In this document: piece after piece, positions 19,384-64,000 of the stretch
How positions within the stretch are numbered: position 1 is the first letter of the stretch
Layout of the letters: the number at the start of each line of letters is the position of its first letter
NCBI GenBank assembly: GCA_000961655.1
Contig: LADR01000012.1
Coordinates: forward strand, 124,001-188,000
Direction: 5' to 3'
Length of the DNA: 64,000 nucleotides
Source: Desulfatitalea sp. BRH_c12
Lineage (GTDB): Bacteria; Desulfobacterota; Desulfobacteria; Desulfobacterales; Desulfosarcinaceae
Position numbers and translations under genes: made by a program
The notes under the pieces: generated by a model
What the model was told of the DNA's origin: nothing
Database searches by the model: none
Seen by the model: the letters and a program-made list of their open reading frames with translations, nothing else

Positions 19384-21107
19384 GTAACTACTCAGCGTAA
19401 ATTGAAGAAAATTCCAAAAAAGTAGAAAAAAAGCTTGACAAGGTTTTCGACAAAAAATCAAAAATTCGTACTTCAGTATAGTTCTTTTATACAGCATTAT
19501 TTGTGACGCGGGACAGGATGTATTTAGGCCTTTTACATTTAAGGCCATGCCCATTGCGCCAAATTATTTTACGCGCGCTGTGGACGATTACAGGGCGAAA
19601 AATCTCGGATTTAAAACCTGTGCTATAGTAGCTATATCAAGCGGCACAGGGATCCGAATGAAAATTCAAAACATTGACATTGAAGCCACCATCAGCAAGG
19701 TTCAGAAGATACTTGCTGAAGACCGGCATATGTCTGAAGCCACCAGGTCAATGTTCGAAATTCTGGTTTTGGTCATCACCTTGCTCGCAAACCGTCTGGG
19801 TTTAAACAGTACAAACAGCAGCAAACCGCCATCCAGCGATCCAAACCGGACAAAGAAAACCAAAAGCAGCACCGGCAAAAAGGCGGGCGGACAAAATGGC
19901 CATATTGGCGTTACACTGAAGAAAGTCGATGATCCTGACAGGATCGAGACGATCAAAATCGATCGACGCACATTGCCCGGCAGACAATACCGGGAAGTCG
20001 GATTCGAGGCACGCCAGGTTTTTGATATTGATATATCAAGGGTTGTGACAGAATACCGAGCTCAAATACTTGAGGATGAAAACAGTCGCCGGTTCGTAGC
20101 ACCATTTCCGGAAGGCGTTACAAAGGCGGTTCAATATGGATCAGGAATAAAGGCGCACGCGGTCTATATGTCCCAATACCAACTGATCCCTTATAACAGA
20201 ATACAAAATTACTTTGCCGACCAAATAAATGTGCCTATCAGCGAAGGGTCGATTTTCAATTTCAATAAAGAAGCCTTTGAATTATTAGCGGACTTTGAAG
20301 ATCGGGCCAAGCAAGAATTGTCCGACTCACAGCTTTTGCACGCAGATGAAACGGGCATCAATATCGGTGGCAAGGGGCACTGGCTGCACAGCGCATCCAA
20401 TGAATTTTGGACGCTTTTCCGACCTCATGCTAAAAGAGGAACCGATGCCATGGACGAAATTGGCGTGCTGCCACGATTCACTGGAACATTGTGCCATGAT
20501 CATTGGAAGCCATACTACAGATACGGTTGCACGCATGCGCTGTGCAATGCGCATCATCTGAGGGAATTGACCAGGGCATGGGAGCAGGATGGCCAAAAGT
20601 GGGCACAACAGATGAAAAAGTTGCTCGAAACAATCAACGATAAGGTTCAGGAAGCCGGCGGCATTTTGGAAGCCGGGACATCGGAGAAATATCGACGAAA
20701 ATACAGAAAAGTACTTGAAACAGCTGAAATAGAGTGCCCGCCACCGGATAGACCCGACATAAAGGGAAAACGAGGCCGAATAAAAAAGACGAAATCTCGA
20801 AATCTATTGGAACGATTGAGGGACTATGAAAATGATGTGCTGCGATTCATGGATGATGAGCGCGTCCCTTTTACCAACAATATGGGCGAAAACGACATTC
20901 GTATGACCAAAGTTCAACAGAAGATATCCGGATGCTTTCGTTCAATGGAAGGTGCTTTGATTTTTTGTCGAATACGAAGCTTTTTGTCTACTTGCCGAAA
21001 ACAGGGTATCAAGGCCAGTCAAGCTCTGGATAATCTGTTCAGAGGCCAATTGCCGGACTTCCCACATGCGAAAACAGGGAATCTGGCGAGAGACGCTGAA
21101 TAGTTAC
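19384..21107 (+). mobile_element. IS66-family insertion sequence, copy 1 (1724 bp)
   Basis: The left end GTAACTACTCAGC and right end GCTGAATAGTTAC are inverted with 12 of 13 matches. The 8-bp duplication TATTGAAA flanks it at 19376-19383 and 21108-21115. Only one gene, tnpC, is present, as in the single-gene ISBst12-type branch; tnpA and tnpB are lacking. About 160 bp of noncoding DNA lie before the transposase. Confidence 0.93.
19658..21103 (+). CDS. tnpC: IS66-family transposase TnpC, copy 1
   Basis: The protein has 481 residues from the ATG at 19658, which follows AGGGA; an in-frame ATG at 19547 would add 37 residues and is kept open in both copies. Seen are the leucine-zipper-like N-terminus (LVLVITLLANRLGLNSTNSS), the SSKPPSSDPNR motif, LLHADETGINI carrying a catalytic aspartate, the H-x-H-x region CNAHHLRELTRAWEQ, and the C-terminal GENDIRMTKVQQKISGCFRS with the catalytic glutamate region. 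The frame is intact. Confidence 0.94.
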   Translation: MKIQNIDIEATISKVQKILAEDRHMSEATRSMFEILVLVITLLANRLGLNSTNSSKPPSSDPNRTKKTKSSTGKKAGGQNGHIGVTLKKVDDPDRIETIKIDRRTLPGRQYREVGFEARQVFDIDISRVVTEYRAQILEDENSRRFVAPFPEGVTKAVQYGSGIKAHAVYMSQYQLIPYNRIQNYFADQINVPISEGSIFNFNKEAFELLADFEDRAKQELSDSQLLHADETGINIGGKGHWLHSASNEFWTLFRPHAKRGTDAMDEIGVLPRFTGTLCHDHWKPYYRYGCTHALCNAHHLRELTRAWEQDGQKWAQQMKKLLETINDKVQEAGGILEAGTSEKYRRKYRKVLETAEIECPPPDRPDIKGKRGRIKKTKSRNLLERLRDYENDVLRFMDDERVPFTNNMGENDIRMTKVQQKISGCFRSMEGALIFCRIRSFLSTCRKQGIKASQALDNLFRGQLPDFPHAKTGNLARDAE

Positions 21108-21131: not shown

Positions 21132-22855
21132 GTAACTACTCAGCGTAAATTGAAGAAAATTCCAAAAAATCAGAAAAAAAGCTTGACAAGGTTTTCGACA
21201 AAAAATCAAAAATTAGTACTGCAGTATAGTTCCTTTATGCAGCATCATTTGTAACGCGGGACAGGATGTACTTAGGTCTTTTACAAGTAAGTTTATGCTC
21301 ATTGCGCCAAATTATTTTACGCGCGCTGTGGACGATTACAGAGCGAAAAATTTTGGATTTAAAACCTGTGCTATAGTAGCTTTATCAACCGGCACAGGTA
21401 TCCGAATGAAAATTCAAAACATTGACATCGAAGCCACCATCAACAAGGTTCAGAAGATAATTGCTGAAGACCGGCATATGTCTGAAGCCACCAAGTCAAT
21501 GTTCGAAATTTTGGTTTTGGTCATCACCCTGCTTTCAAACCGTTTGGGTTTAAACAGTACAAACAGCAGCAAACCGCCATCCAGCGATCCAAACCGGACA
21601 AAGAAAACCAAAAGCAGCACCGGGAAAAAGGCGGGCGGACAAAATGGCCATATCGGCGTTACACTGAAGAAAGTCGATGATCCTGACAGGATCGAGACGA
21701 TCAAAATCGATCGACGCACATTGCCCGGCAGACAATACCGGGAAGTCGGATTTGAGGCGCGCCAGGTTTTTGATATTGATATCTCAAGGGTTGTGACAGA
21801 ATACCGAGCTCAAATACTTGAGGATGAAAACAGTCGCCGGTTCGTAGCACCATTTCCGGAAGGCGTTACGAAGGCGGTTCAATATGGATCAGGAATTAAG
21901 GCGCACGCGGTCTATATGTCCCAATACCAACTGATCCCTTATAACAGAATACAAAATTACTTTGCCGACCAAATAAATGTACCTATTAGCGAAGGATCGA
22001 TTTTCAATTTCAATAAAGAAGCCTTTGAACTATTGGCGAACTTTGAAGATCGGGCCAAGCAAGAATTGGCAGCTTCACAGCTTTTGCACGCAGATGAAAC
22101 GGGTATCAATATCGGTGGCAAGGGGCACTGGCTGCACAGCGCATCCAATGAATTTTGGACGCTTTTCCATCCCCACGCTAAAAGAGGCACCGACGCCATG
22201 GACGAAATTGGCGTGCTACCACGATTCACTGGAACATTGTGTCATGATCATTGGAAGCCATACTACAGATACGGTTGCACGCATGCGCTGTGCAATGCGC
22301 ATCATCTGAGGGAATTGACCAGGGCATGGGAGCAGGATGGCCAAAAGTGGGCACAACAGATGAAAAAGTTGCTCGAAACAATCAACGATAAGGTTCAGGA
22401 AGCCGGCGGCATTTTGGATGCCGAGACTTCGGAAAAATATCGACGAAAATACAGAAAAGTACTTGAAACAGCCGAAATAGAGTGCCCGCCACCGGATAGA
22501 CCCGACAAAAAGGGAAAACGAGGCCGAATAAAAAAGACGAAATCTCGAAATCTATTGGAACGATTGAGGGACTATGAAAATGATGCACTGCGATTCATGG
22601 ATAATGAGCGCGTCCCATTTACCAACAATATGGGCGAAAACGACATCCGTATGACCAAAGTTCAACAGAAGATATCCGGATGCTTTCGTTCGATGGAAGG
22701 TGCTTTGATTTTTTGTCGAATACGAAGCTTTTTGTCTACTTGCCGAAAACAAGGAATCAAAGCCAGTCAAGCTCTGGATAATCTGTTCAGAGGCAAATTG
22801 CCGGACTTCCCACATGCGAAAACAGGGAATCTGTCGAGAGACGCTGAATAGTTAC
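21132..22855 (+). mobile_element. IS66-family insertion sequence, copy 2 (1724 bp)
   Basis: Same length, orientation and terminal repeats as copy 1, offset by 1748 bp, with scattered base differences in both coding and noncoding parts. It has its own duplication ATAAAAAC at 21124-21131 and 22856-22863. It therefore inserted independently and is not a tandem duplication of copy 1. Confidence 0.93.
21406..22851 (+). CDS. tnpC: IS66-family transposase TnpC, copy 2
   Basis: The product is nearly identical to copy 1 over 481 residues; differences include SK for SR near residue 31, AASQ for SDSQ before LLHADETG, and GKLPDF for GQLPDF near the end. All motifs named for copy 1 are present. The start is taken as the ATG at 21406; an ATG at 21295 is in frame. 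The stop codon lies inside the right terminal repeat. Confidence 0.94.
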   Translation: MKIQNIDIEATINKVQKIIAEDRHMSEATKSMFEILVLVITLLSNRLGLNSTNSSKPPSSDPNRTKKTKSSTGKKAGGQNGHIGVTLKKVDDPDRIETIKIDRRTLPGRQYREVGFEARQVFDIDISRVVTEYRAQILEDENSRRFVAPFPEGVTKAVQYGSGIKAHAVYMSQYQLIPYNRIQNYFADQINVPISEGSIFNFNKEAFELLANFEDRAKQELAASQLLHADETGINIGGKGHWLHSASNEFWTLFHPHAKRGTDAMDEIGVLPRFTGTLCHDHWKPYYRYGCTHALCNAHHLRELTRAWEQDGQKWAQQMKKLLETINDKVQEAGGILDAETSEKYRRKYRKVLETAEIECPPPDRPDKKGKRGRIKKTKSRNLLERLRDYENDALRFMDNERVPFTNNMGENDIRMTKVQQKISGCFRSMEGALIFCRIRSFLSTCRKQGIKASQALDNLFRGKLPDFPHAKTGNLSRDAE

Positions 22856-56186: not shown

Positions 56187-57374
56187 TCAGCGCTCAGCGG
56201 AGTGGGGGCAATTCGAGGCGACAGCGCGGCTCAACATGGAAACAGCCGCATTGATCTCTTCGATTTTATCGGCCTGACTTCCCTTTTCCGTAAACAGCCA
56301 CCTGATTGCCATGTGACTGAAAATTCCCATAAAAAGATTGCGGAAAACCCGGTTATTAATTTCCGGACGAATACTGCCGTCACTCTTCCCCTCGTCCAAA
56401 ATCTTGTAGACGCTTTCAATGTATTTTTTAAAGGGAGGATAGGCATTTGAGGAATAGAAATGGGCATTGTAAATGGCATCAAACAAGAAAATCTTAACGA
56501 AGATCGGTTGCGTTAGGTAGATTGTGAAATGATAGCGGATGAAGCGTATCAGTTTACGCAGTGGGGTCTTCACTTCGAACAATTCGTCAAGCGAATCCAG
56601 ATTGTTCCGGAATTGCCGCTCCAGAGTTGAGAAGAGTAGATCCTCCTTGTTTTTAAAATATTCGTAAATGGTCCCTTCAGAGACCTCCGCCGATTTTGAA
56701 ATCTCCTGTATCGTGGCGTTCTGATAACCCTTGGTGGCAAACACGTTTAAGGCTGACGCCAGAATCCTGCCGGACTTTTCGCTGTTCAGGGTGGTCGGTT
56801 CGGCCTCGGACCGAATCATCGGCAAGAGGAGATCCAGAATGGCATCCAGATCCGTATGTGCCTGGGGCGTCTCCCGAGCTACCATGCTCTGAATATTTTC
56901 TATGTCCACCAGCCCAAAAACAGCATCACGAACTATCACGAGGGATAGGTCATTGCGAAAGGTGCCATCCGATATCCCTTTATTGAGGATTTTTCGCCCG
57001 ATATCCGACCAGCGCTTAATCAGATTGTAAGCCTCATGCTTCATGAAGCTCTTGCTGGAGCGGCATTCGAATAACAGGAGATTGGCATAGTCGGAATGGG
57101 TATCATGGTAATAGAGCTGGAACCAGATCAGCTTGCTGAGTTGGCTGACCGGATCCATGATGCCCTGGAGTTGCTCCTCCAATTTTTCAAGGGCGTCTCT
57201 AAGGCGCTCCTGGGTGACGGAGAAAAGCAAGTCCTCTTTATTTTTGAAATAATGATAGAGCATCGAGTCCGTTACACCCGCAGCAGCACTTATTTCACTG
57301 ATGGTCGCGCTGCGGCCTTTGGCGGACATGATACTCTCAGCCGCATTCAGAATATTCTGCCGTTTGTCACTCAT
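56187..57374 (-). CDS. Tandem TetR-family regulator with two complete TetR units
   Basis: The start is taken at the ATG at 57374 (395 residues); the frame stays open to 57443. Two TetR units follow one another. Unit 1 has TISEISAAAGVTDSMLYHYF near 25-45 and unit 2 has TIQEISKSAEVSEGTIYEYF near 220-240; both share the run YFKNKEDLLFS. Each HTH is followed by its own helical ligand domain. Normal TetR proteins have about 200 residues and dimerise, so this is a covalent fusion of two. It faces away from the liv operon and likely controls it. Confidence 0.9.
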   Translation of the reverse strand: MSDKRQNILNAAESIMSAKGRSATISEISAAAGVTDSMLYHYFKNKEDLLFSVTQERLRDALEKLEEQLQGIMDPVSQLSKLIWFQLYYHDTHSDYANLLLFECRSSKSFMKHEAYNLIKRWSDIGRKILNKGISDGTFRNDLSLVIVRDAVFGLVDIENIQSMVARETPQAHTDLDAILDLLLPMIRSEAEPTTLNSEKSGRILASALNVFATKGYQNATIQEISKSAEVSEGTIYEYFKNKEDLLFSTLERQFRNNLDSLDELFEVKTPLRKLIRFIRYHFTIYLTQPIFVKIFLFDAIYNAHFYSSNAYPPFKKYIESVYKILDEGKSDGSIRPEINNRVFRNLFMGIFSHMAIRWLFTEKGSQADKIEEINAAVSMLSRAVASNCPHSAER

Positions 57375-58144
57375 CCTAAAGTTTCTTATCGCTGATAAAA
57401 TAGTGCAGCCTGTTTCGCCAGACCGCCAAACTAATCGGTTCAATGCAGAACTGTTCGCTTCTTAGATCAACCCACGAATTTTGCAACCTTATTCGCTATA
57501 TTGAGTTATATTCTAAAAAATTTGTCAATTAAAATTTAGCCAAAATAAGCTTATATTACTATAATAACTTATATATAAGTTAAAAATGGCCTGTCCGATT
57601 AAATGTTGACAAGGCCCACTCTTACAGAATATTGTTCAATTGAAATTAATATTAAACTACTTTTGATCCATTTTTCATCCTCGAAGCTTCCTTCGCGATA
57701 TAAAGGAGGCCTGAAAAAATCAAATATCAAAGGATCACTTTAGAATGAATTTGAACCCTTCCAATTTTAAATTCCGCGAAGGGAACGTATGGCTGCATTT
57801 TATTCATATTAAAGTAACTGAATTTTTTGAAAATTTCACCAAAGCTGCCGAACACGTCAAATCCGATCCGATCCGTAATGGCGATCGTAATGACCGGCAA
57901 TGTGCGTGCCTTTGCTGCGCAAGCCGAGATCAAACACTAGGCATCCAGGGTATTCCCCTTACAGGCAGAATTGACCGATATTTAGAATGGTGCTCAAAAA
58001 GACAACTCTCTATGATCGCCTGTGGACAACGCAATGGAAGAGATTTTGGTCTCTTTTTATATAGACTGGCATAATGCCGGCCAGATGACAGCCCATCGAG
58101 GTGCTCTAATAAAAACAACCATTCATTCAGGGGAGGGGACGCAC
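57375..58144. promoter_or_regulatory. Divergent regulatory region between the TetR fusion and livK
   Basis: The stretch of about 770 bp is strongly AT-rich around 57500-57600 and holds a perfect 16-bp palindrome AACTTATATATAAGTT (57566-57581) and a 10-bp palindrome ATAAGCTTAT (57545-57554), both fit for TetR-type binding. An open frame at 57745-58074 has no recognised family and is not called. GGGGAGGGGAC precedes the livK start. Confidence 0.55.
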
Positions 58145-59416
58145 ATGCTCAATAAAGTTTTCGCTATTTTTGCCATAATGGCTCTCGCGCTGGTGATCAC
58201 GGTTCCCGTGATGGCCGAGGATACCATTAAAATCGCTTATATCGACCCGCTCTCGGGCGCCATGGCCGGGGTGGGCGATGCTGGTTACAAGCACTTCCAG
58301 TACAATGCCGAACTGCTCAACGCCGCAGGCGGCGTTCTGGGCGGCAAGAAGTTCGAGATCGTTCCTTTCGACAATAAAGTCAGCCCCCAAGATACCTTGA
58401 TCCAATTGAAAAACGCCATCGACCAGGACATCCGCATCGTCGCTCAGGGTAACGGCTCCAGCGTGGCTGGCGCTCTGATAGAAGCCATCAACAAACACAA
58501 CGAACGCAATCCGGACAACCAGCTGATCTATCTGAACTATGCAGCGGTGACGCCATCCTTCACCAACGAGCAGTGCAGCTTCTGGCACTTTCGCTTCGAT
58601 GCCCACGTGGACATGAAGATCGCCGCCATCACCAATTACATCAAAGGGCAAAAAGACATCAAAAAAGTCTACCTGATGAATCAGGACTATGTCTTCGGCC
58701 ATGCCGTGAGCGATGCCTCCAAGGCCATGCTCAAGGAGAAGCGGCCGGACATCAAGATCGTTGGCGACAGCTTCACGCCGCTGGGTAAGGTCAAGGATTT
58801 CTCACCCTACGTGGCCAAGATCCAGGCTTCGGGCGCCGATACCGTTATCAGCGGCAACTGGGGCGCGGACATGTCCCTGCTGGTCAAAGCCGCCAAGGAT
58901 GCCGGTTTGAAAGCCCAGTTCTACACCTTCTACGGCAATGGTCTGGGGGCCCCTAAGGCCATCGGCGAAGCCGGTATTGGTATCTTGAACTCGGTGACCG
59001 AGTGGCACCTCGACCTCAACCAGGAAGAGAAAAACGCCGAAGACGAGAAATTCTTCCTGGACTACCAGGAAAAATACTCCAGCCGCGGAGAGGTCCCTTA
59101 TTATTACGGTCGCATCGGTACCACCATGCAGATGCTGGCCGCTGCCATCGAAAAGGCCCACAGCACCAAAGCCAAGGACATCGCCTATGCCTTGGAGGGC
59201 ATGGAATACCAGACCCCCTATGGCAAGGTGACCATGCGCGCCGAGGATCATCAGCTGATCCAGCCGCTCTATATTTCCACTTACGCCAAAGCCGGCCAGG
59301 GAACGGTGAAGTATGACGCTGAAAACACCGGCGTCGGCTTCAAGACCATCCAGCGCATCGAAGCCGCCGATACGGCCATGCCGACCACCTGCAAGATGGA
59401 GCGGCCGGAGAAATAG
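58145..59416 (+). CDS. livK: Branched-chain amino-acid-type ABC substrate-binding protein
   Basis: Start at the ATG at 58145 after GGGGAGGGGACGCAC. A signal peptide (FAIFAIMALALVITVPVMAE) precedes a type I periplasmic binding protein with IKIAYIDPLSGAMAGVGD, NQDYVFGHAVSDASKAML and PYYYGRIGTTMQMLAAAIEK. The family binds branched-chain amino acids but also aromatic and other organic acids. Here the operon ends beside a tannase/feruloyl-esterase-like gene, so an aromatic ligand is possible. It is followed by a strong GC hairpin at 59437-59460. Confidence 0.94.
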   Translation: MLNKVFAIFAIMALALVITVPVMAEDTIKIAYIDPLSGAMAGVGDAGYKHFQYNAELLNAAGGVLGGKKFEIVPFDNKVSPQDTLIQLKNAIDQDIRIVAQGNGSSVAGALIEAINKHNERNPDNQLIYLNYAAVTPSFTNEQCSFWHFRFDAHVDMKIAAITNYIKGQKDIKKVYLMNQDYVFGHAVSDASKAMLKEKRPDIKIVGDSFTPLGKVKDFSPYVAKIQASGADTVISGNWGADMSLLVKAAKDAGLKAQFYTFYGNGLGAPKAIGEAGIGILNSVTEWHLDLNQEEKNAEDEKFFLDYQEKYSSRGEVPYYYGRIGTTMQMLAAAIEKAHSTKAKDIAYALEGMEYQTPYGKVTMRAEDHQLIQPLYISTYAKAGQGTVKYDAENTGVGFKTIQRIEAADTAMPTTCKMERPEK

Positions 59417-59460: not shown

Positions 59461-59521
59461 ACTTTGGCGCCTGATTTAATTTTCAGCTAAACCGAACTCT
59501 TTTTCTGAGATAGTGAAAACC

Positions 59522-60472
59522 ATGCTCGAATATCTCCTCTTCTCGGTTCTCAACAGCTTGGTCCTGGGAATGCTGCTCTTCATGCTCTCCAGCGGCCTGA
59601 CCCTGATTTTTAGTATGATGGGTGTGCTTAACTTCGCCCATGCCAGCTTCTACATGCTGGGCGCCTATTTCGGCTACCAAATTACTCAGGCCGTCGGTTT
59701 CTGGCCGGCACTGGTGATCGCCCCCCTGCTGGTCGGTGTGATTGGGGCTCTGGTAGAACGTTACGGCCTGCGTACCGTTCACAAATACGGTCACGTGGCC
59801 GAGTTGCTCTTCACGGTAGGATTGGCCTTCATTATCGAAGAGGGCGTCAATCTCATCTGGGGACGCAACGCGATGACCTACCCCGTTCCCCAGTCCCTGG
59901 ATTTCCCCCTGTTCACTCTGTTCAGCACCGAGTTTTCGACCTACCGCATGTTCATGCTGCTGATCTCCGTGGCCATTTTCATCGGGCTTTATATGGTGCT
60001 CACCCGCACGCGCATCGGGCTGATCATCCAGGCGGCCTTGACCCACCCCCAGGGGGTGAGTGCGCTGGGTCACAATGTGCCCATGGTGTTCATGATGGTG
60101 TTCGGCGGCGGCTCCGCCCTGGCCGGGGTCGCCGGGGTCATCGGCGGCATCTTCCTGATCACCGAACCGGCCATGGCCGCGACCTTGGGCCCCATCGTTT
60201 TTGTGGTGATCGTGGTGGGCGGCATGGGTTCTCTGACCGGCGCTTTCGTGGCCTCATTGCTGCTGGCCGCCATCCAGACCTTCGCCGTAGGTTTGGAGTA
60301 TTCGCTCACCGACCTGTTCGCCCTCGTGGGCATCCATGGTCAGGTGAGCGGCCTGCTCGAGGACCTGGGGCGGATTCAATTATCCCACACTGGACCCATT
60401 CTGCCCTATCTGTTCATGGTGCTCATGCTCATGTTCCGGCCCAAGGGCCTCATGGGCAAACGTGAATCGTGA
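59522..60472 (+). CDS. livH: Liv-type ABC transporter permease LivH
   Basis: The 316-residue protein (an in-frame GTG at 59513 would add three residues) has about eight membrane helices, with SSGLTLIFSMMGVLNFAHAS and GGMGSLTGAFVASLLLAAIQ, both typical for LivH. It forms the membrane channel with LivM. The operon order livK-livH-livM-livG-livF is complete. Confidence 0.95.
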   Translation: MLEYLLFSVLNSLVLGMLLFMLSSGLTLIFSMMGVLNFAHASFYMLGAYFGYQITQAVGFWPALVIAPLLVGVIGALVERYGLRTVHKYGHVAELLFTVGLAFIIEEGVNLIWGRNAMTYPVPQSLDFPLFTLFSTEFSTYRMFMLLISVAIFIGLYMVLTRTRIGLIIQAALTHPQGVSALGHNVPMVFMMVFGGGSALAGVAGVIGGIFLITEPAMAATLGPIVFVVIVVGGMGSLTGAFVASLLLAAIQTFAVGLEYSLTDLFALVGIHGQVSGLLEDLGRIQLSHTGPILPYLFMVLMLMFRPKGLMGKRES

Positions 60473-60508: not shown

Positions 60509-61762
60509 ATGCCGACTCTATTGCGACGCTACGGAATCTGGGCAGCAGCCATGATCATGTGCGGGGTGCTGCCGCTCATCTTCAAATCCAGTTTCTCTAT
60601 TTCACTGCTCAGCCAAATGGGCATCTCCATCATCTTCGCCCTCTCCTACAATATGCTGCTGGGGCAGGGCGGCATGCTCTCCTTTGGTCACGCCGTCTAT
60701 CTCGGCCTGGGTGGTTTTCTTTCCATGCATGCCCTCAACAAGATCGGCGGCGGCGCCCTGCCGCTGCCTCTGGAACTGCTGCCCCTGGTGGGCGGTATGG
60801 CCGGCGTCGTGGCGGGCGTTGTTTTCGGCTGGCTCTCAACCGATCGTTCCGGAACGACCTTCGCCCTGATCTCCCTGGGTATCGGTGAATTGATCGCGGC
60901 CAGCGCCCTGATGCTGCCGAGTTTTTTCGGAGGGGAAGAAGGCATCAGCGGCAACCGCATGGTCAAAATGACCCTGACCGGATTCAAATTCGGCAAATCC
61001 GTCGAGGTTTACTACCTCATCGCCTGTTGGATGCTGCTCAGTGTGGGCCTGATGTATTTGCTGACCAAAACGCCTTTGGGACGGGTGGCCAATGCCGTGC
61101 GCGACAACCCCGAGCGGGCCGCCTTCATCGGCTATAATCCGCGTTCGGTGCGCACGCTTCAGTTCACGCTGGCGGCCTTTTTCGCGGGTCTGGCCGGGGG
61201 CCTATTCGCCATCAATTACGAGATCATCACCGCCGAGATGGTGGGCGCGCATCCCTCGGGCAGTGTGCTGATGATGACCTATATCGGCGGCGTGGGCCAT
61301 TTCTTCGGACCGATCATAGGCGCGGTGCTGGTGACCTTCATGCAGCAGTCCCTGGCCGGCATCACCCATGCCTGGCTGCTTTACTTCGGTCTGCTTTTCG
61401 TGATGATGGTGCTTTGGGCACCCAACGGCCTGGCGGGTTTGATCATGATGCACGAACCGGTCTGGAAGGCCGGACTGCTCCGGCGCCTGCTTCCATCTTA
61501 TCTGGCGATTCTGGTTCCGACCCTGGTAATGTTAACGGGCATCATGATCCTGGTGGAGATCAACTATCATCTCTCCCTGAGTATCAATCCTGATGATCCG
61601 TTGACCCTCTTCGGCATCGCCTTTAACGCCAGGTCTCCCGTGGCCTGGGGCCTTGCCATCGCTTTGGCCGCTGTCGGTCTTTTCTTTTTCCGCAAAATGG
61701 TGCGATGGGTCAACCAGAGCTGGAATGAAGTGACCCAAGCAATGAAGGGGGCCGATAGATGA
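60509..61762 (+). CDS. livM: Liv-type ABC transporter permease LivM
   Basis: The 417-residue protein has ten or more hydrophobic segments and LivM signatures (SYNMLLGQGGMLSFGHAVYL, TPLGRVANAVRDNPERAAFI, GGVGHFFGPIIGAVLVTF). It is somewhat longer than usual because of an extra C-terminal pair of helices around 330-400. AAGGAAG precedes the ATG. Its stop overlaps the livG start by 4 bp. Confidence 0.95.
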   Translation: MPTLLRRYGIWAAAMIMCGVLPLIFKSSFSISLLSQMGISIIFALSYNMLLGQGGMLSFGHAVYLGLGGFLSMHALNKIGGGALPLPLELLPLVGGMAGVVAGVVFGWLSTDRSGTTFALISLGIGELIAASALMLPSFFGGEEGISGNRMVKMTLTGFKFGKSVEVYYLIACWMLLSVGLMYLLTKTPLGRVANAVRDNPERAAFIGYNPRSVRTLQFTLAAFFAGLAGGLFAINYEIITAEMVGAHPSGSVLMMTYIGGVGHFFGPIIGAVLVTFMQQSLAGITHAWLLYFGLLFVMMVLWAPNGLAGLIMMHEPVWKAGLLRRLLPSYLAILVPTLVMLTGIMILVEINYHLSLSINPDDPLTLFGIAFNARSPVAWGLAIALAAVGLFFFRKMVRWVNQSWNEVTQAMKGADR

Positions 61763-62511
61763 CCGCCGTTGCGCTCAAAATCGTGGACGTCCACAAAAGT
61801 TTCGGAAGCAGTAAAATCATCAACGGCGTTCATCTGGAGGTGCTCAAAGGCGAACGCCATGCCGTGATCGGCCCCAATGGCGCCGGTAAATCCACGCTGT
61901 TCAATTTGATCAGCGGCTTCTATTCGGTCAGTTCAGGTTACATCGCGCTCAACGGACAGATCATCTCCAACATGGCCCCTCATTTGATCAACCGCAGGGG
62001 GTTGAGCCGCAGTTTCCAGGTCACCAATATCTTCCCCAAGATGACGGTTTTTGAAAACATCCGCTGCGCCCTGCTCTGGCCCATGGGATATCGTCACTCC
62101 TTCTGGCATATGGTGGGGAACCTGAAAAAGGTCAATGCCAAAGCCGGAGAGATCCTGGAGCGCATCCGCTTGGCCGACCGCAGGGACATTCCGGCCGGCC
62201 TGCTGGCCTATGCCGAGCAGCGTGCGCTGGAGATCGGCATCACCATTGCCGGCGACGCCGACGTCATTCTGCTGGACGAACCCACGGCCGGTATGAGCCA
62301 GAGCGAGACCGCCCATGCGGTGGAACTGATCCGCACGGTCACCGAGGGCAAGACCTTGCTGGTGGTGGAGCACGACATGAGCGTGGTCTTCGGCCTGGCC
62401 GATCACATCTCGGTGCTGGTTTACGGTCAGGTGGTGGCCACGGACACGCCCGAGAAAATCCGGCAGAACCCCCAGGTTCAGGAAGCTTACCTTGGGAAGG
62501 AGATCGAATAA
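61759..62511 (+). CDS. livG: Liv-type ABC transporter ATP-binding protein LivG
   Basis: The 250-residue ATPase has Walker A IGPNGAGKSTLFNLI, Walker B DADVILLDEPTAGMS and VVEHDMSVVFGLADHI. The ABC signature reads LLAYAEQRALEIGI; the usual form is LSYGEQR, so the serine-glycine step is replaced by Ala-Tyr-Ala, a notable variation in this family. It powers transport with LivF. It overlaps livM (ATGA). Confidence 0.94.
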   Translation: MTAVALKIVDVHKSFGSSKIINGVHLEVLKGERHAVIGPNGAGKSTLFNLISGFYSVSSGYIALNGQIISNMAPHLINRRGLSRSFQVTNIFPKMTVFENIRCALLWPMGYRHSFWHMVGNLKKVNAKAGEILERIRLADRRDIPAGLLAYAEQRALEIGITIAGDADVILLDEPTAGMSQSETAHAVELIRTVTEGKTLLVVEHDMSVVFGLADHISVLVYGQVVATDTPEKIRQNPQVQEAYLGKEIE

Positions 62512-63207
62512 ATGCTCGAGATCAAAGATCTGCACGCATACTACGGCCGCAGCCATATTCTGCAGGGCGTCAACCTGAACGTGAAAGAAGGGGAGATCGT
62601 CAGCTTGCTGGGCCGCAACGGCGTAGGGCGCTCAACGACCTGCATGACCATCATGGGTCTGGTCCAGCCCCATGGTTCCATTCTTTACAAAGGCCAGCAG
62701 ATTGCCGGACGCAAGCCCCACGACATTGCCCGCAAGGGCATCGGCTTCGTGCCCGAGGACCGCTGGATCTTTCCGGGACTGACGGTTTTGCAGAATCTGC
62801 AATTGGGCATGAAGAGCAGCAAGCAGTCGGGGCGCTGGCGCATCGAAGATGTCTTCAGCATCTTCCCGCGCCTGGGTGAGCGCTCCAACGTTCACGGCGG
62901 CTTGATTTCAGGCGGTGAAAAGCAGATGCTCACCATCTGTCGAACGTTGATGGGCGATCCGGATTTCATTATGATCGACGAGCCCACCGAGGGGTTGGCG
63001 CCCATGATGGTCGAGCAGGTGGGGCGCCTGATCGAAGAGATCGCCCGCCGGGGAATCTCCGTGCTGCTGGTGGAACAGAAGCTGAGCATCGCCCTGAAAA
63101 TTTCACAACGGCTCTACATCATGGGCCACGGCCACATCGTATACGAAGGCACGCCCGCGGACATCAAGAAGGATCAGGCCGTGCGCAAGGAGTGGTTGGA
63201 AGTCTAA
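62512..63207 (+). CDS. livF: Liv-type ABC transporter ATP-binding protein LivF, Walker A Lys to Arg
   Basis: The 231-residue ATPase has signature ISGGEKQMLTICRTLM, Walker B PDFIMIDEPTEGLAPMM and VLLVEQKLSIAL. Walker A reads LLGRNGVGRSTT, with arginine R40 (CGC, 62629-62631) in place of the usual lysine. Similar GVGRST or GMGRST forms seem to occur in some LivF lineages, so the protein may still work. GGGAAGGAG inside the end of livG serves as ribosome site and the ATG follows the livG stop directly. Confidence 0.93.
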   Translation: MLEIKDLHAYYGRSHILQGVNLNVKEGEIVSLLGRNGVGRSTTCMTIMGLVQPHGSILYKGQQIAGRKPHDIARKGIGFVPEDRWIFPGLTVLQNLQLGMKSSKQSGRWRIEDVFSIFPRLGERSNVHGGLISGGEKQMLTICRTLMGDPDFIMIDEPTEGLAPMMVEQVGRLIEEIARRGISVLLVEQKLSIALKISQRLYIMGHGHIVYEGTPADIKKDQAVRKEWLEV

Positions 63208-63303: not shown

Positions 63304-64000
63304 ATGAAGAGGATTGGAAACAGGAACGTTTGGATTCTATATTCGGTTCTGTTCTTTGTGAGTCTGGGATTGACCTGGGTGCCTTCTCCCCAGATAACAA
63401 CGGCTCAGGCTGAGAGCGCCGTTGATACTGCTGTGGATGCGCTGGCGAATGTGGAATACCTCGTCAGTGCGCTTCCGGACTCAGCTTTCCGGAACATTAA
63501 CAATCGGAAAGCGCTGCTAAACAAAATCGATGCAACTTTTGACCAGCTCGAGGCTGGCGCTTACACGGGTGCCAAAAACAAACTCAAGAACGACATCGAA
63601 GACAAAATTACCAAATGGATTGTCGCCTCACAACAGGCCGCTTTAATTGAAGCACTGGAAATGACGATTCAGGCGGTGGCCTGCGCCGAACTCGATGGTA
63701 TGGTGATTCCCGCCACATCGATTGGCTTACCGACTACCGGGGGCTTGATCACCAGCACAACAGTCGTCCCGGCGACCGGAGCTATCGGAACATATTGCAA
63801 GATACTGGGTGAAATCAGCCCAGTGGATCCCACTGCGCCTAAAATCAAGTTCCAGGTCGACCTGCCTGCAAATTGGAACAAAAAAGCGATGGCGTTTGGC
63901 GGCGGCGGTTTTGACGGCTCGATCCCCAATGTGGCTGGCAATGTTGGATTCGGTCCAACGGATAAACCGACACCGATCCAGCGTGGCTACGCCACCTTCG
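63304..64000 (+). CDS. Secreted tannase/feruloyl-esterase-like protein, 3'-truncated by window edge
   Basis: ATG at 63304 after AAACGGAGGG; 232 codons are visible. A signal peptide (ILYSVLFFVSLGLTWVPSP) precedes a helical stretch with ALANVEYLVSALPDSAFRN and KLKNDIEDKITKWI, similar to FIMAH-type domains. Then PANWNKKAMAFGGGGFDGSI and FGPTDKPTPIQRGYATF, the start of the tannase/feruloyl esterase family. It would hydrolyse aromatic esters outside the cytoplasm. It follows livF by 96 bp, so a link to uptake of released acids is possible. The catalytic serine lies beyond the window. Confidence 0.8.
   Translation, partial: MKRIGNRNVWILYSVLFFVSLGLTWVPSPQITTAQAESAVDTAVDALANVEYLVSALPDSAFRNINNRKALLNKIDATFDQLEAGAYTGAKNKLKNDIEDKITKWIVASQQAALIEALEMTIQAVACAELDGMVIPATSIGLPTTGGLITSTTVVPATGAIGTYCKILGEISPVDPTAPKIKFQVDLPANWNKKAMAFGGGGFDGSIPNVAGNVGFGPTDKPTPIQRGYATF

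Follow-up and report, generated by a model that had tools for sequence, protein, structure and literature searches.

The gene at this locus appears to encode two TetR regulators in one chain, which raises the question of whether such a fusion is genuine and, if so, how a single chain reads DNA. We examined it within the whole 64,000-nucleotide stretch of DNA analysed (hereafter, the window; C28:124001-188000 of a 6.0-Mb genome with 29 TetR_N matches) and against relatives from other genomes, and collected the coordinates of the features in Table 1. Read on the minus strand from its ATG, the 395-codon frame contains no stop. Pfam detected TetR_N (PF00440) in two stretches of the 395-aa protein (whole-protein E = 4.1e-30; 103.8 bits against a gathering threshold of 24), which places it in the TetR/AcrR family, and a FadR-like domain (TetR_C_4, PF08359) after each TetR_N; the single chain is made up of two TetR_N, each with its own ligand domain. 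These results agree with the preliminary description of the locus, which had proposed two complete TetR units in one chain of about 395 residues. A missed stop or an assembly join between the units, named there as what would refute the proposal, is excluded by near-full-length relatives of 86-89% identity in other genomes (G006; L090). At gathering thresholds, Rfam found no known RNA element in the window. Far from the gene, at 19547-21103 and 21295-22851, the window also contains two adjacent, nearly identical ORFs of 518 aa that look transposase-like by eye.

Table 1 Features of the tandem TetR locus (positions are those of the window; C28 coordinates are given where available).
Feature	Position	Strand	Basis or remark
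Tandem TetR gene, 395 aa	56187..57374	-	ATG start at 57374; open frame, Pfam
Unit 1, residues 1-187, TetR_N + FadR-like ligand domain	56814..57374	-	Pfam, model
HTH of unit 1, recognition helix VTDSMLYHYF	57219..57353 (= C28:181219-181353)	-	own-genome search
Linker, residues 188-198, pLDDT <50 at 192-198	56781..56813	-	AlphaFold model
Unit 2, residues 199-388, TetR_N + FadR-like domain	56211..56780	-	Pfam, model
HTH of unit 2, recognition helix VSEGTIYEYF	56631..56765 (= C28:180631-180765)	-	own-genome search
Palindrome TAACTTATATATAAGTTA, 18 bp	57565..57582	.	not conserved, judged not operator
Operator candidate A, CAGAATATTGTTCAAT	57625..57640	+	over -10 of promoter-like site reading towards livJ
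Operator candidate B, TAGAATATAACTCAAT	57500..57515	-	end 126 bp upstream of regulator ATG
Promoter-like TTGACA - 18 nt - TATTGT	57606..57635	+	reads towards livJ
LivJ-type periplasmic binding protein (Peripla_BP_6), divergent	58145..59416	+	
LivH-type permease	59513..60472	+	
LivM-type permease	60509..61762	+	
LivG-type ATPase	61759..62511	+	
LivF-type ATPase	62512..63207	+	
Tannase / feruloyl esterase (PF07519)	63304..64000	+	continues past window end; 648 aa in L023

The two units share 30.4% identity (56/184). They have in common the run YFKNKEDLLFS, as had been noticed before, which is present at residues 42 and 239 and is encoded by codons that differ at 7 of 11 places. We evaluated this run, as well as the recognition helices and individual residues discussed below, in 40 tandem proteins (43 frames minus three duplicates; 20 shorter copies of the same loci were left out of the 43-frame set). 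The form YFKNKEDLL was found at least once in 20 of the 40 tandem proteins and twice in three. Among 98 single TetRs examined, two carried the exact run and 46 the degenerate form Y[FY]x[NS]K[EQD][DEK][LIV][LIF]; the aligned counterpart in Bacillus subtilis FadR is YFKNKEDIL. Because the run is common in tandems and its degenerate form is common in single TetRs, we regard it as a mark of the family that gives no sign of recent duplication. A recent internal duplication was rejected on three counts, namely the 30% identity, the 7 of 11 differing codons and the separate clades in which the two units fall.

A survey for other tandem TetR proteins, which the preliminary description had suggested, recovered full-length tandems across Desulfobacterota genomes. 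The genome under study itself encodes a second one, on C83. Among 60 relatives, many had the full-length protein, at 89% identity in a congener, at 39-48% in other congeners, genera and families, and at ~30% in a few more; one genome (G023) held six full-length copies. Scanning named genomes returned an 86% identical relative and members in Desulfosudis, Desulforapulum, Desulfonema, Desulfobacula, Desulfotignum, Desulfosarcina and others, and both HTHs were confirmed in these tandems. At a threshold of 1e-40, 94 of 297 genomes of the phylum matched the tandem profile, most such rows being single-unit matches, and among the matches listed a full-length tandem was present in at least 15 of the 297, our genome included.

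To place the units, we cut 28 tandems into their halves and analysed these with 60 single TetRs in one tree, from which Mce3R, a double TetR discussed below, was left out. The 23 unit-1 rows of the main family formed one clade (support 100/99), and the 23 unit-2 rows formed another together with the fragment L038 (support 100/99), which points to a single fusion at the origin of the main family. Judged from the sequences, this fusion is old, as is the tandem family itself, which is found in sulfate-reducing bacteria and their kin. L076 and the group L077/L078/L093 were placed with less certainty, and L109 was placed apart from the main family and looks like a separate fusion. Two tandems apparently belong to such a separate fusion (L109:5367-6629 and L118:7938-9203), and they lie next to Liv-type and acyl-CoA ligase-like genes. 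A relative lacking the first unit was observed at L079:8761-9393 (G008), and also in L038; here the start of unit 1 runs out of frame into the second HTH, as if the repeats had recombined.

Do both halves sense a ligand? In unit 1, E103 (36 of 40 tandem proteins) and R105 (38 of 40) align with E107 and R109 of B. subtilis FadR. The accessible part of PMC13176608 describes R109 as key to the conformational change of that protein. At the position of R109, unit 2 has arginine in 5 of the 40 tandem proteins, lysine in 13 and isoleucine in 11, with isoleucine in the window protein. The equivalent of R109 is thus kept in unit 1 and mostly not in unit 2, which suggests one main sensor half, unit 1; unit 2 could bind something else. 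The earlier idea that a single chain responds to two ligands is weakened to that extent, since the switch arginine that speaks for a responsive unit 1 is mostly missing from the aligned position of unit 2.

The genes near the tandems give some indication of what might be sensed. Eleven of 20 neighbour genes that we chose across the family are CoA-linked enzymes (enoyl-CoA hydratase, thiolase, acyl-CoA dehydrogenase, AMP-binding ligase, carboxyl transferase and HMG-CoA reductase); the others are two HpaB-type genes, two DctP receptors, two short-chain dehydrogenases, one radical SAM protein and two genes without a match at 1e-10. Our guess is that the inducer is an acyl-CoA or an aromatic acyl-CoA. 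In the window, the regulator diverges across a 770-bp intergenic region from a livJHMGF operon, of which the tannase / feruloyl esterase gene is probably the last gene and which is a probable target of the tandem TetR. Relatives of LivJHM with 68-77% identity lie beside only one other tandem (L060), and weaker Liv matches (25-49%) were found near L090, L080, L084, L109 and L118; the L090 tandem faces an enoyl-CoA hydratase gene, not livJ. A 109-aa ORF at 57745-58074 was considered as a gene but treated as non-coding, because the alignment with the 89% identical relative contains gaps there that are not multiples of three.

We then turn to the DNA that the protein might read. A 16-bp palindrome upstream of the gene had been put forward as a possible target. 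A palindrome does exist there, and is in fact 18 bp long, but its role as a target did not hold up. A perfect 18-bp palindrome occurred in 13 of 2000 Markov shuffles of the intergenic region, the window contains one other perfect palindrome of this length, and copies of a different, recurring 17-bp motif flank the palindrome on both sides. In the 89% identical relative it is absent from the matching place, though the upstream region otherwise aligns, and on this ground we rejected the AT-rich palindrome as an operator.

The recurring motif emerged from comparing the upstream regions of relatives, which share TTGAACAATATTCT and similar blocks; in the window's close relatives these blocks occur in inverted pairs. 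Expectation maximisation yielded a 17-bp motif, ATnGAATATnATTCAnT. With a matrix built from a founding group (L023, L054, L090 and L080/L081), 15 of 28 other dereplicated members had a site at p < 0.05 against dinucleotide shuffles, compared to ~1.4 expected, and 13 did not; this is the cleanest test, being free of pattern sharpening, and gives the lower counts. The core pattern TAGAATATNNTTC, allowing at most one mismatch, turned up in 7 of the 33 members that do not belong to the founding group (shuffle mean 0.55, maximum 4 in 200) and in 12 of 980 other windows of 500 bp from these loci, where it should be noted that the pattern was sharpened after matches were already visible in four of the seven members counted and that it also seeds the leave-one-out tests. 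Leave-one-out matrices gave sites at p < 0.05 in 21 of 30 dereplicated members when 215 other upstream windows served as background, and in 20 of the 30 when each member's own region was dinucleotide-shuffled. The ten without a significant site against shuffles include L021, the second tandem of our genome; in the full set of 38 members, those not significant against shuffles were L065 (at 0.05), L075, L057, L077, L093, L074, L058, L076, L066, L085, L021 and L089.

Support was thinner at a distance. Among 17 held-out members from the phylum, mostly more distant, the full matrix found a site at p < 0.05 in six and none in 11, and the founding-group matrix was significant in only two and not in 15; neither L164 (identical to the training member L085) nor L165 (90% identical to L085) had a site. 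An upstream score of ≥10 was reached by 25 of 38 tandems vs 3 of 84 single TetRs, using a matrix trained on those same tandems, and the three motif-bearing singles belong to the single-unit clade beside the tandem units in the tree. L109 and L118, a separate lineage of which only L109 was placed in the tree, were left out of the tandem motif sets; scored apart, they reached 1.3 and 5.9. The motif was absent in 8 of 8 distinct members whose recognition-helix glycine in unit 2 is changed and present in 26 of 38 with the glycine (p = 0.0005, a post hoc link among related members, with L164 dropped). Going by these scans, the core of the family has a real motif, which becomes weaker or different among distant members, and the tandem TetR probably recognises an asymmetric site of the ATnGAATATnATTCAnT type that recurs before many of its genes.

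Several further sites were observed along the way. A second conserved block, AATGGAAGGGTTCAAATTCAT and variants, lies at about -400 upstream of the tandem gene in L023, L054 and L090. In our genome, HGAATATNAYTCA has seven sites, two of them inside ORFs, vs one for the reversed pattern, and these sites may possibly mark a regulon. Intergenic HGAATATNAYTCA sites lie at C3:14502, C24:248864 and C64:79475; genes beside such sites, named by eye from their N-termini, are solute symporter-like, indolepyruvate-oxidoreductase-like, flavin-oxidoreductase-like and TRAP-TAXI-like receptor genes. On C47 of the same genome, L022:7159-8541 encodes a 461-aa fusion of TetR_N to a short-chain dehydrogenase beside Liv-type ABC transporter genes, and a palindromic form of the motif, CTGAATAATATTCAG, lies ~110 bp upstream of it.

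In the window, two sites match the motif, A and B, 125 bp apart from start to start. Of the five close members shown, three have the promoter-like TTGACA at an unchanged distance from the operator (L054 and L090 besides the window), and L080 and L081 do not; promoter-like matches in the region were not above chance (4 vs 2.8 expected, sd 1.8).

Is the motif truly asymmetric? Across the 24 best sites, left arms mostly have the form [A/T/C]GAAT and right arms, taken on their own strand, TGA[A/G]T. An asymmetric model gained 47.8 log units over a symmetric one for these sites, which had been chosen with the asymmetric matrix and include three related pairs, and none of 300 symmetric simulations reached this value (≤35.1). 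A scan with a symmetric matrix over dereplicated members, which corrects for the choice of sites, gave a smaller effect than the first test; here the observed value was reached in 0 of 300 simulations for n = 20 and n = 24 and in 3 of 300 for n = 15. Where the motif coincides with TATNAT, its sequence may be shaped in part by a -10 box.

Single-unit relatives offer a comparison. Of 35 such proteins, 13 rows had a site scoring ≥9 and 22 had no site scoring 9, the latter including L184 and L185 (55-56% identical to L096; AEGT or ADGT helix). With L216 and L195 dropped as near-duplicates, 11 rows scoring ≥9 remained, and a perfect palindromic TGAATnnnATTCA was present in seven of these vs 2 of 18 tandems (p = 0.010). 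The sites of the single relatives lie 70-292 bp upstream. The recognition helix of the seven singles with the perfect palindrome, A[ET]GT[IV]Y[QED], is close to that of unit 2, V[AS]EGT[IVL]YE, and the helix of the window protein's unit 2 likewise resembles those of single-unit relatives. At two helix positions the units each have their own preferred residues, S37 (36 of 40 tandem proteins) and H41 (28 of 40) in unit 1 and, at the matching positions, G234 (36 of 40) and E238 (28 of 40) in unit 2. Since 22 of the 35 relatives have no such site, a palindromic ancestor is suggested by only part of the single relatives.

Next to the motif, the predicted structure bears on how the two halves are arranged. 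We ran AlphaFold on an alignment of 15 tandems, obtaining pLDDT 86.4 and pTM 0.77 for the window protein and pLDDT 87.3 and pTM 0.79 for the 52% identical L080. The five models of the window protein varied (mean pLDDT 86.4, 85.4, then ~76), and internal stretches with pLDDT <50 fell in the linker and at 264-266. The top structural match was Mce3R (9b7y_A) in both cases, with Z 19.0 over 282 residues at 4.2 Å for the window model and Z 18.5 over 278 residues at 4.9 Å for L080, and both alignments run across the two units in order. Single-unit TetRs listed among the matches aligned over only ~177-192 residues. FadR scored almost as high against the window model (Z 18.9), so it is the aligned length rather than Z that distinguishes Mce3R. 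Foldseek also ranked Mce3R first (TM 0.54), with a whole-chain rmsd of 21.1 Å; given this poor superposition and the spread of the models, we trust the fold of each half more than the way in which the halves are arranged. When overlaid on FadR 3whb_A, the modelled unit 1 deviates by 1.8 Å over 184 residues, and unit 2, taken from the whole-chain model, is predicted to be all-helical. Because both models match Mce3R over ~280 residues of both units, we favour a single-chain pseudo-dimer, and the tandem chain is likely one by these models. The proposal in the preliminary description that one chain binds one operator as a pseudo-dimer is in this way supported by prediction, namely the Mce3R alignments and an asymmetric motif of single-operator size.

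Taking these results together, the explanation we lean towards, with slightly better than even confidence, is a single-chain FadR-like TetR repressor that reads the pseudo-palindromic ATnGAATATnATTCAnT with two non-identical helices and represses transport and itself. Two FadR-like TetR units would have fused early in Desulfobacterota, and the fused units are predicted to fold onto each other as a pseudo-dimer. As the conserved motif suggests, one chain would then read one pseudo-palindromic operator through its two different recognition helices. The chain would occupy site A, covering a promoter-like -10 box that belongs to the divergent livJHMGF-tannase operon, as well as site B before the regulator gene, and would thereby repress transport and itself. 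A CoA-thioester or related acid derived from the imported substrate may bind mainly unit 1, where E-x-R is kept, and cause release from DNA. After the fusion the halves would have diverged: the helix of unit 2 would have stayed like that of the single relatives whose best sites are palindromic TGAATnnnATTCA, the helix of unit 1 would have become mostly D-S-x-[IL]-Y-H, and the operator would have lost its symmetry. A broader claim, to which we give a little less than an even chance, is that the ancestor was a homodimer on the palindrome TGAATnnnATTCA and became, through the fusion, a polar pseudo-dimer with split halves and an oriented, asymmetric operator. We hold just as tentatively to the form of the split, in which one half would keep the ancestral DNA helix and the other would carry the new helix and the ligand switch. 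If this broader claim is true, the steps from a symmetric to an asymmetric operator should be traceable in living relatives.

Other explanations have to be weighed against the single-chain repressor. The asymmetry of the motif might come from an overlapping -10 hexamer, the protein itself reading a plain palindrome, TGAATnnnATTCA, as its single relatives do. Consistent with this, GAATATNATTC includes TATNAT, site A lies 18 nt after TTGACA in three orthologues, and (+) sites lie nearer the regulator gene than (-) sites (median 183 vs 289 bp, p = 0.054). However, C takes the place of the last T of the -10 box in 12 of 24 sites, the T at -6 is found in 9 left arms but 23 right arms out of 24, for which a -10 box does not account, and single relatives with a site, located 70-292 bp upstream, more often keep the palindrome; we consider this explanation doubtful. 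We regard as unlikely a dimer of tandems, in which like units pair between chains and the resulting two symmetric DNA-binding heads bridge two operators, such as A and B. For each of the two AlphaFold models the alignment with the Mce3R protomer extends over both units, and the motif is asymmetric, whereas homotypic heads would favour two different palindromes. What speaks for such a dimer is the inverted site pairs spaced ~122-137 bp apart in L023, L054, L090, L080 and L081 (that of L072 is weaker), as well as the precedent of Mce3R, a single-chain pseudo-dimer that, according to the accessible part of PMC11667970, also homodimerises and for which looping has been proposed. Yet an inverted order of sites is expected anyway because the genes diverge, and the other members with at least two sites (L067, L087 and L088) do not have the 122-137-bp spacing.

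The motif could also be the site of another regulator common to these promoters, with the tandem protein binding elsewhere. Many distant tandems are without the motif, and it is also found before some single TetRs (3 of 84, and 13 of 35 in the set chosen as close relatives). The three motif-bearing singles sit, however, in the clade adjoining the tandem units, and the post hoc association of the motif with the unit-2 glycine (absent in the eight members with a changed residue, present in 26 of 38 with Gly) likewise argues that the motif belongs to the tandem protein, so that we find another regulator quite improbable. We give practically no credence to a meaningless joining of two adjacent TetR genes, whether by chance or in the assembly, given that the tandem is conserved across Desulfobacterota families, with mirrored clades for its units and both HTHs conserved.

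Finally, we compared the tandem family to known systems. FadR is a homodimer of single units. When the PDB was searched by halves, FadR of B. subtilis came first for both (2e-16 for unit 1 and 9.5e-16 for unit 2), and the FadR (YsiA) proteins of B. subtilis and B. halodurans (PDB 3whb, 3whc and 5gp9) count among the nearest known systems. Of the FadR-2 motif ELRQSN, the E-x-R is conserved in unit 1, whereas unit 2 is without that arginine, and against the NCBIfam FadR equivalog NF053878 the window protein scored 181.8 bits, below the cut-off of 200. Closer at hand are the single-unit FadR-like TetRs L096 (Syntrophorhabdus), L097, L181 and L182, which have the same core site as the tandems, TGAAT...ATTCA, and a helix, AEGT[IV]Y, close to that of tandem unit 2 but, unlike the tandems, consist of one unit and have a palindromic site; L096 and L097 fall in the single-unit clade beside the tandem units, in a tree without L181 and L182. 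TetR repressors with 16-bp palindromes have been described in sulP clusters of Desulfobacteraceae (PMC11887813), and the accessible part of that article does not contain the word 'tandem'. Literature searches on fused TetRs returned mostly unrelated papers, and among the papers listed from an open-access collection, outside which most subscription journals lie, we found no report of this FadR-like tandem TetR family.

The nearest parallel is Mce3R (Rv1963c, PDB 9b7y) of Mycobacterium tuberculosis, which likewise has two TetR units in one chain of ~400 aa. Its likeness was first found by a PDB search, and it is the best fold match of the whole predicted model. The accessible part of PMC11667970 describes Mce3R as a single-chain pseudo-dimer with an omega fold, two non-identical HTHs and one ligand domain, which binds a non-palindromic 25-bp operator site. 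Its two 25-bp sites lie 53 bp apart, compared to a 17-bp motif as the candidate operator of the family described here. By sequence, a single-protein search (phmmer) aligned only one HTH between Mce3R and the window protein, and a profile search of the tandem family aligned one HTH stretch best; the tandem halves are FadR-like (PF08359) and, in the tree without Mce3R, fall among Desulfobacterota and other single units. The tandem is real, old and, by its predicted structure, probably a single-chain pseudo-dimer like Mce3R, but one of a different, FadR-like family. This family offers a candidate regulator-operator pair by which sulfate reducers may control acid uptake and acyl-CoA metabolism, and a natural series for how a fused dimer may gain asymmetric DNA recognition and split sensing from DNA reading. 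Among the matches listed, no double TetR but Mce3R has a structure or an operator; the FadR-like tandems, which number in the dozens, would stand beside it as a second family, one for which an operator has been computed and which has close relatives with a single unit, in part with palindromic sites.
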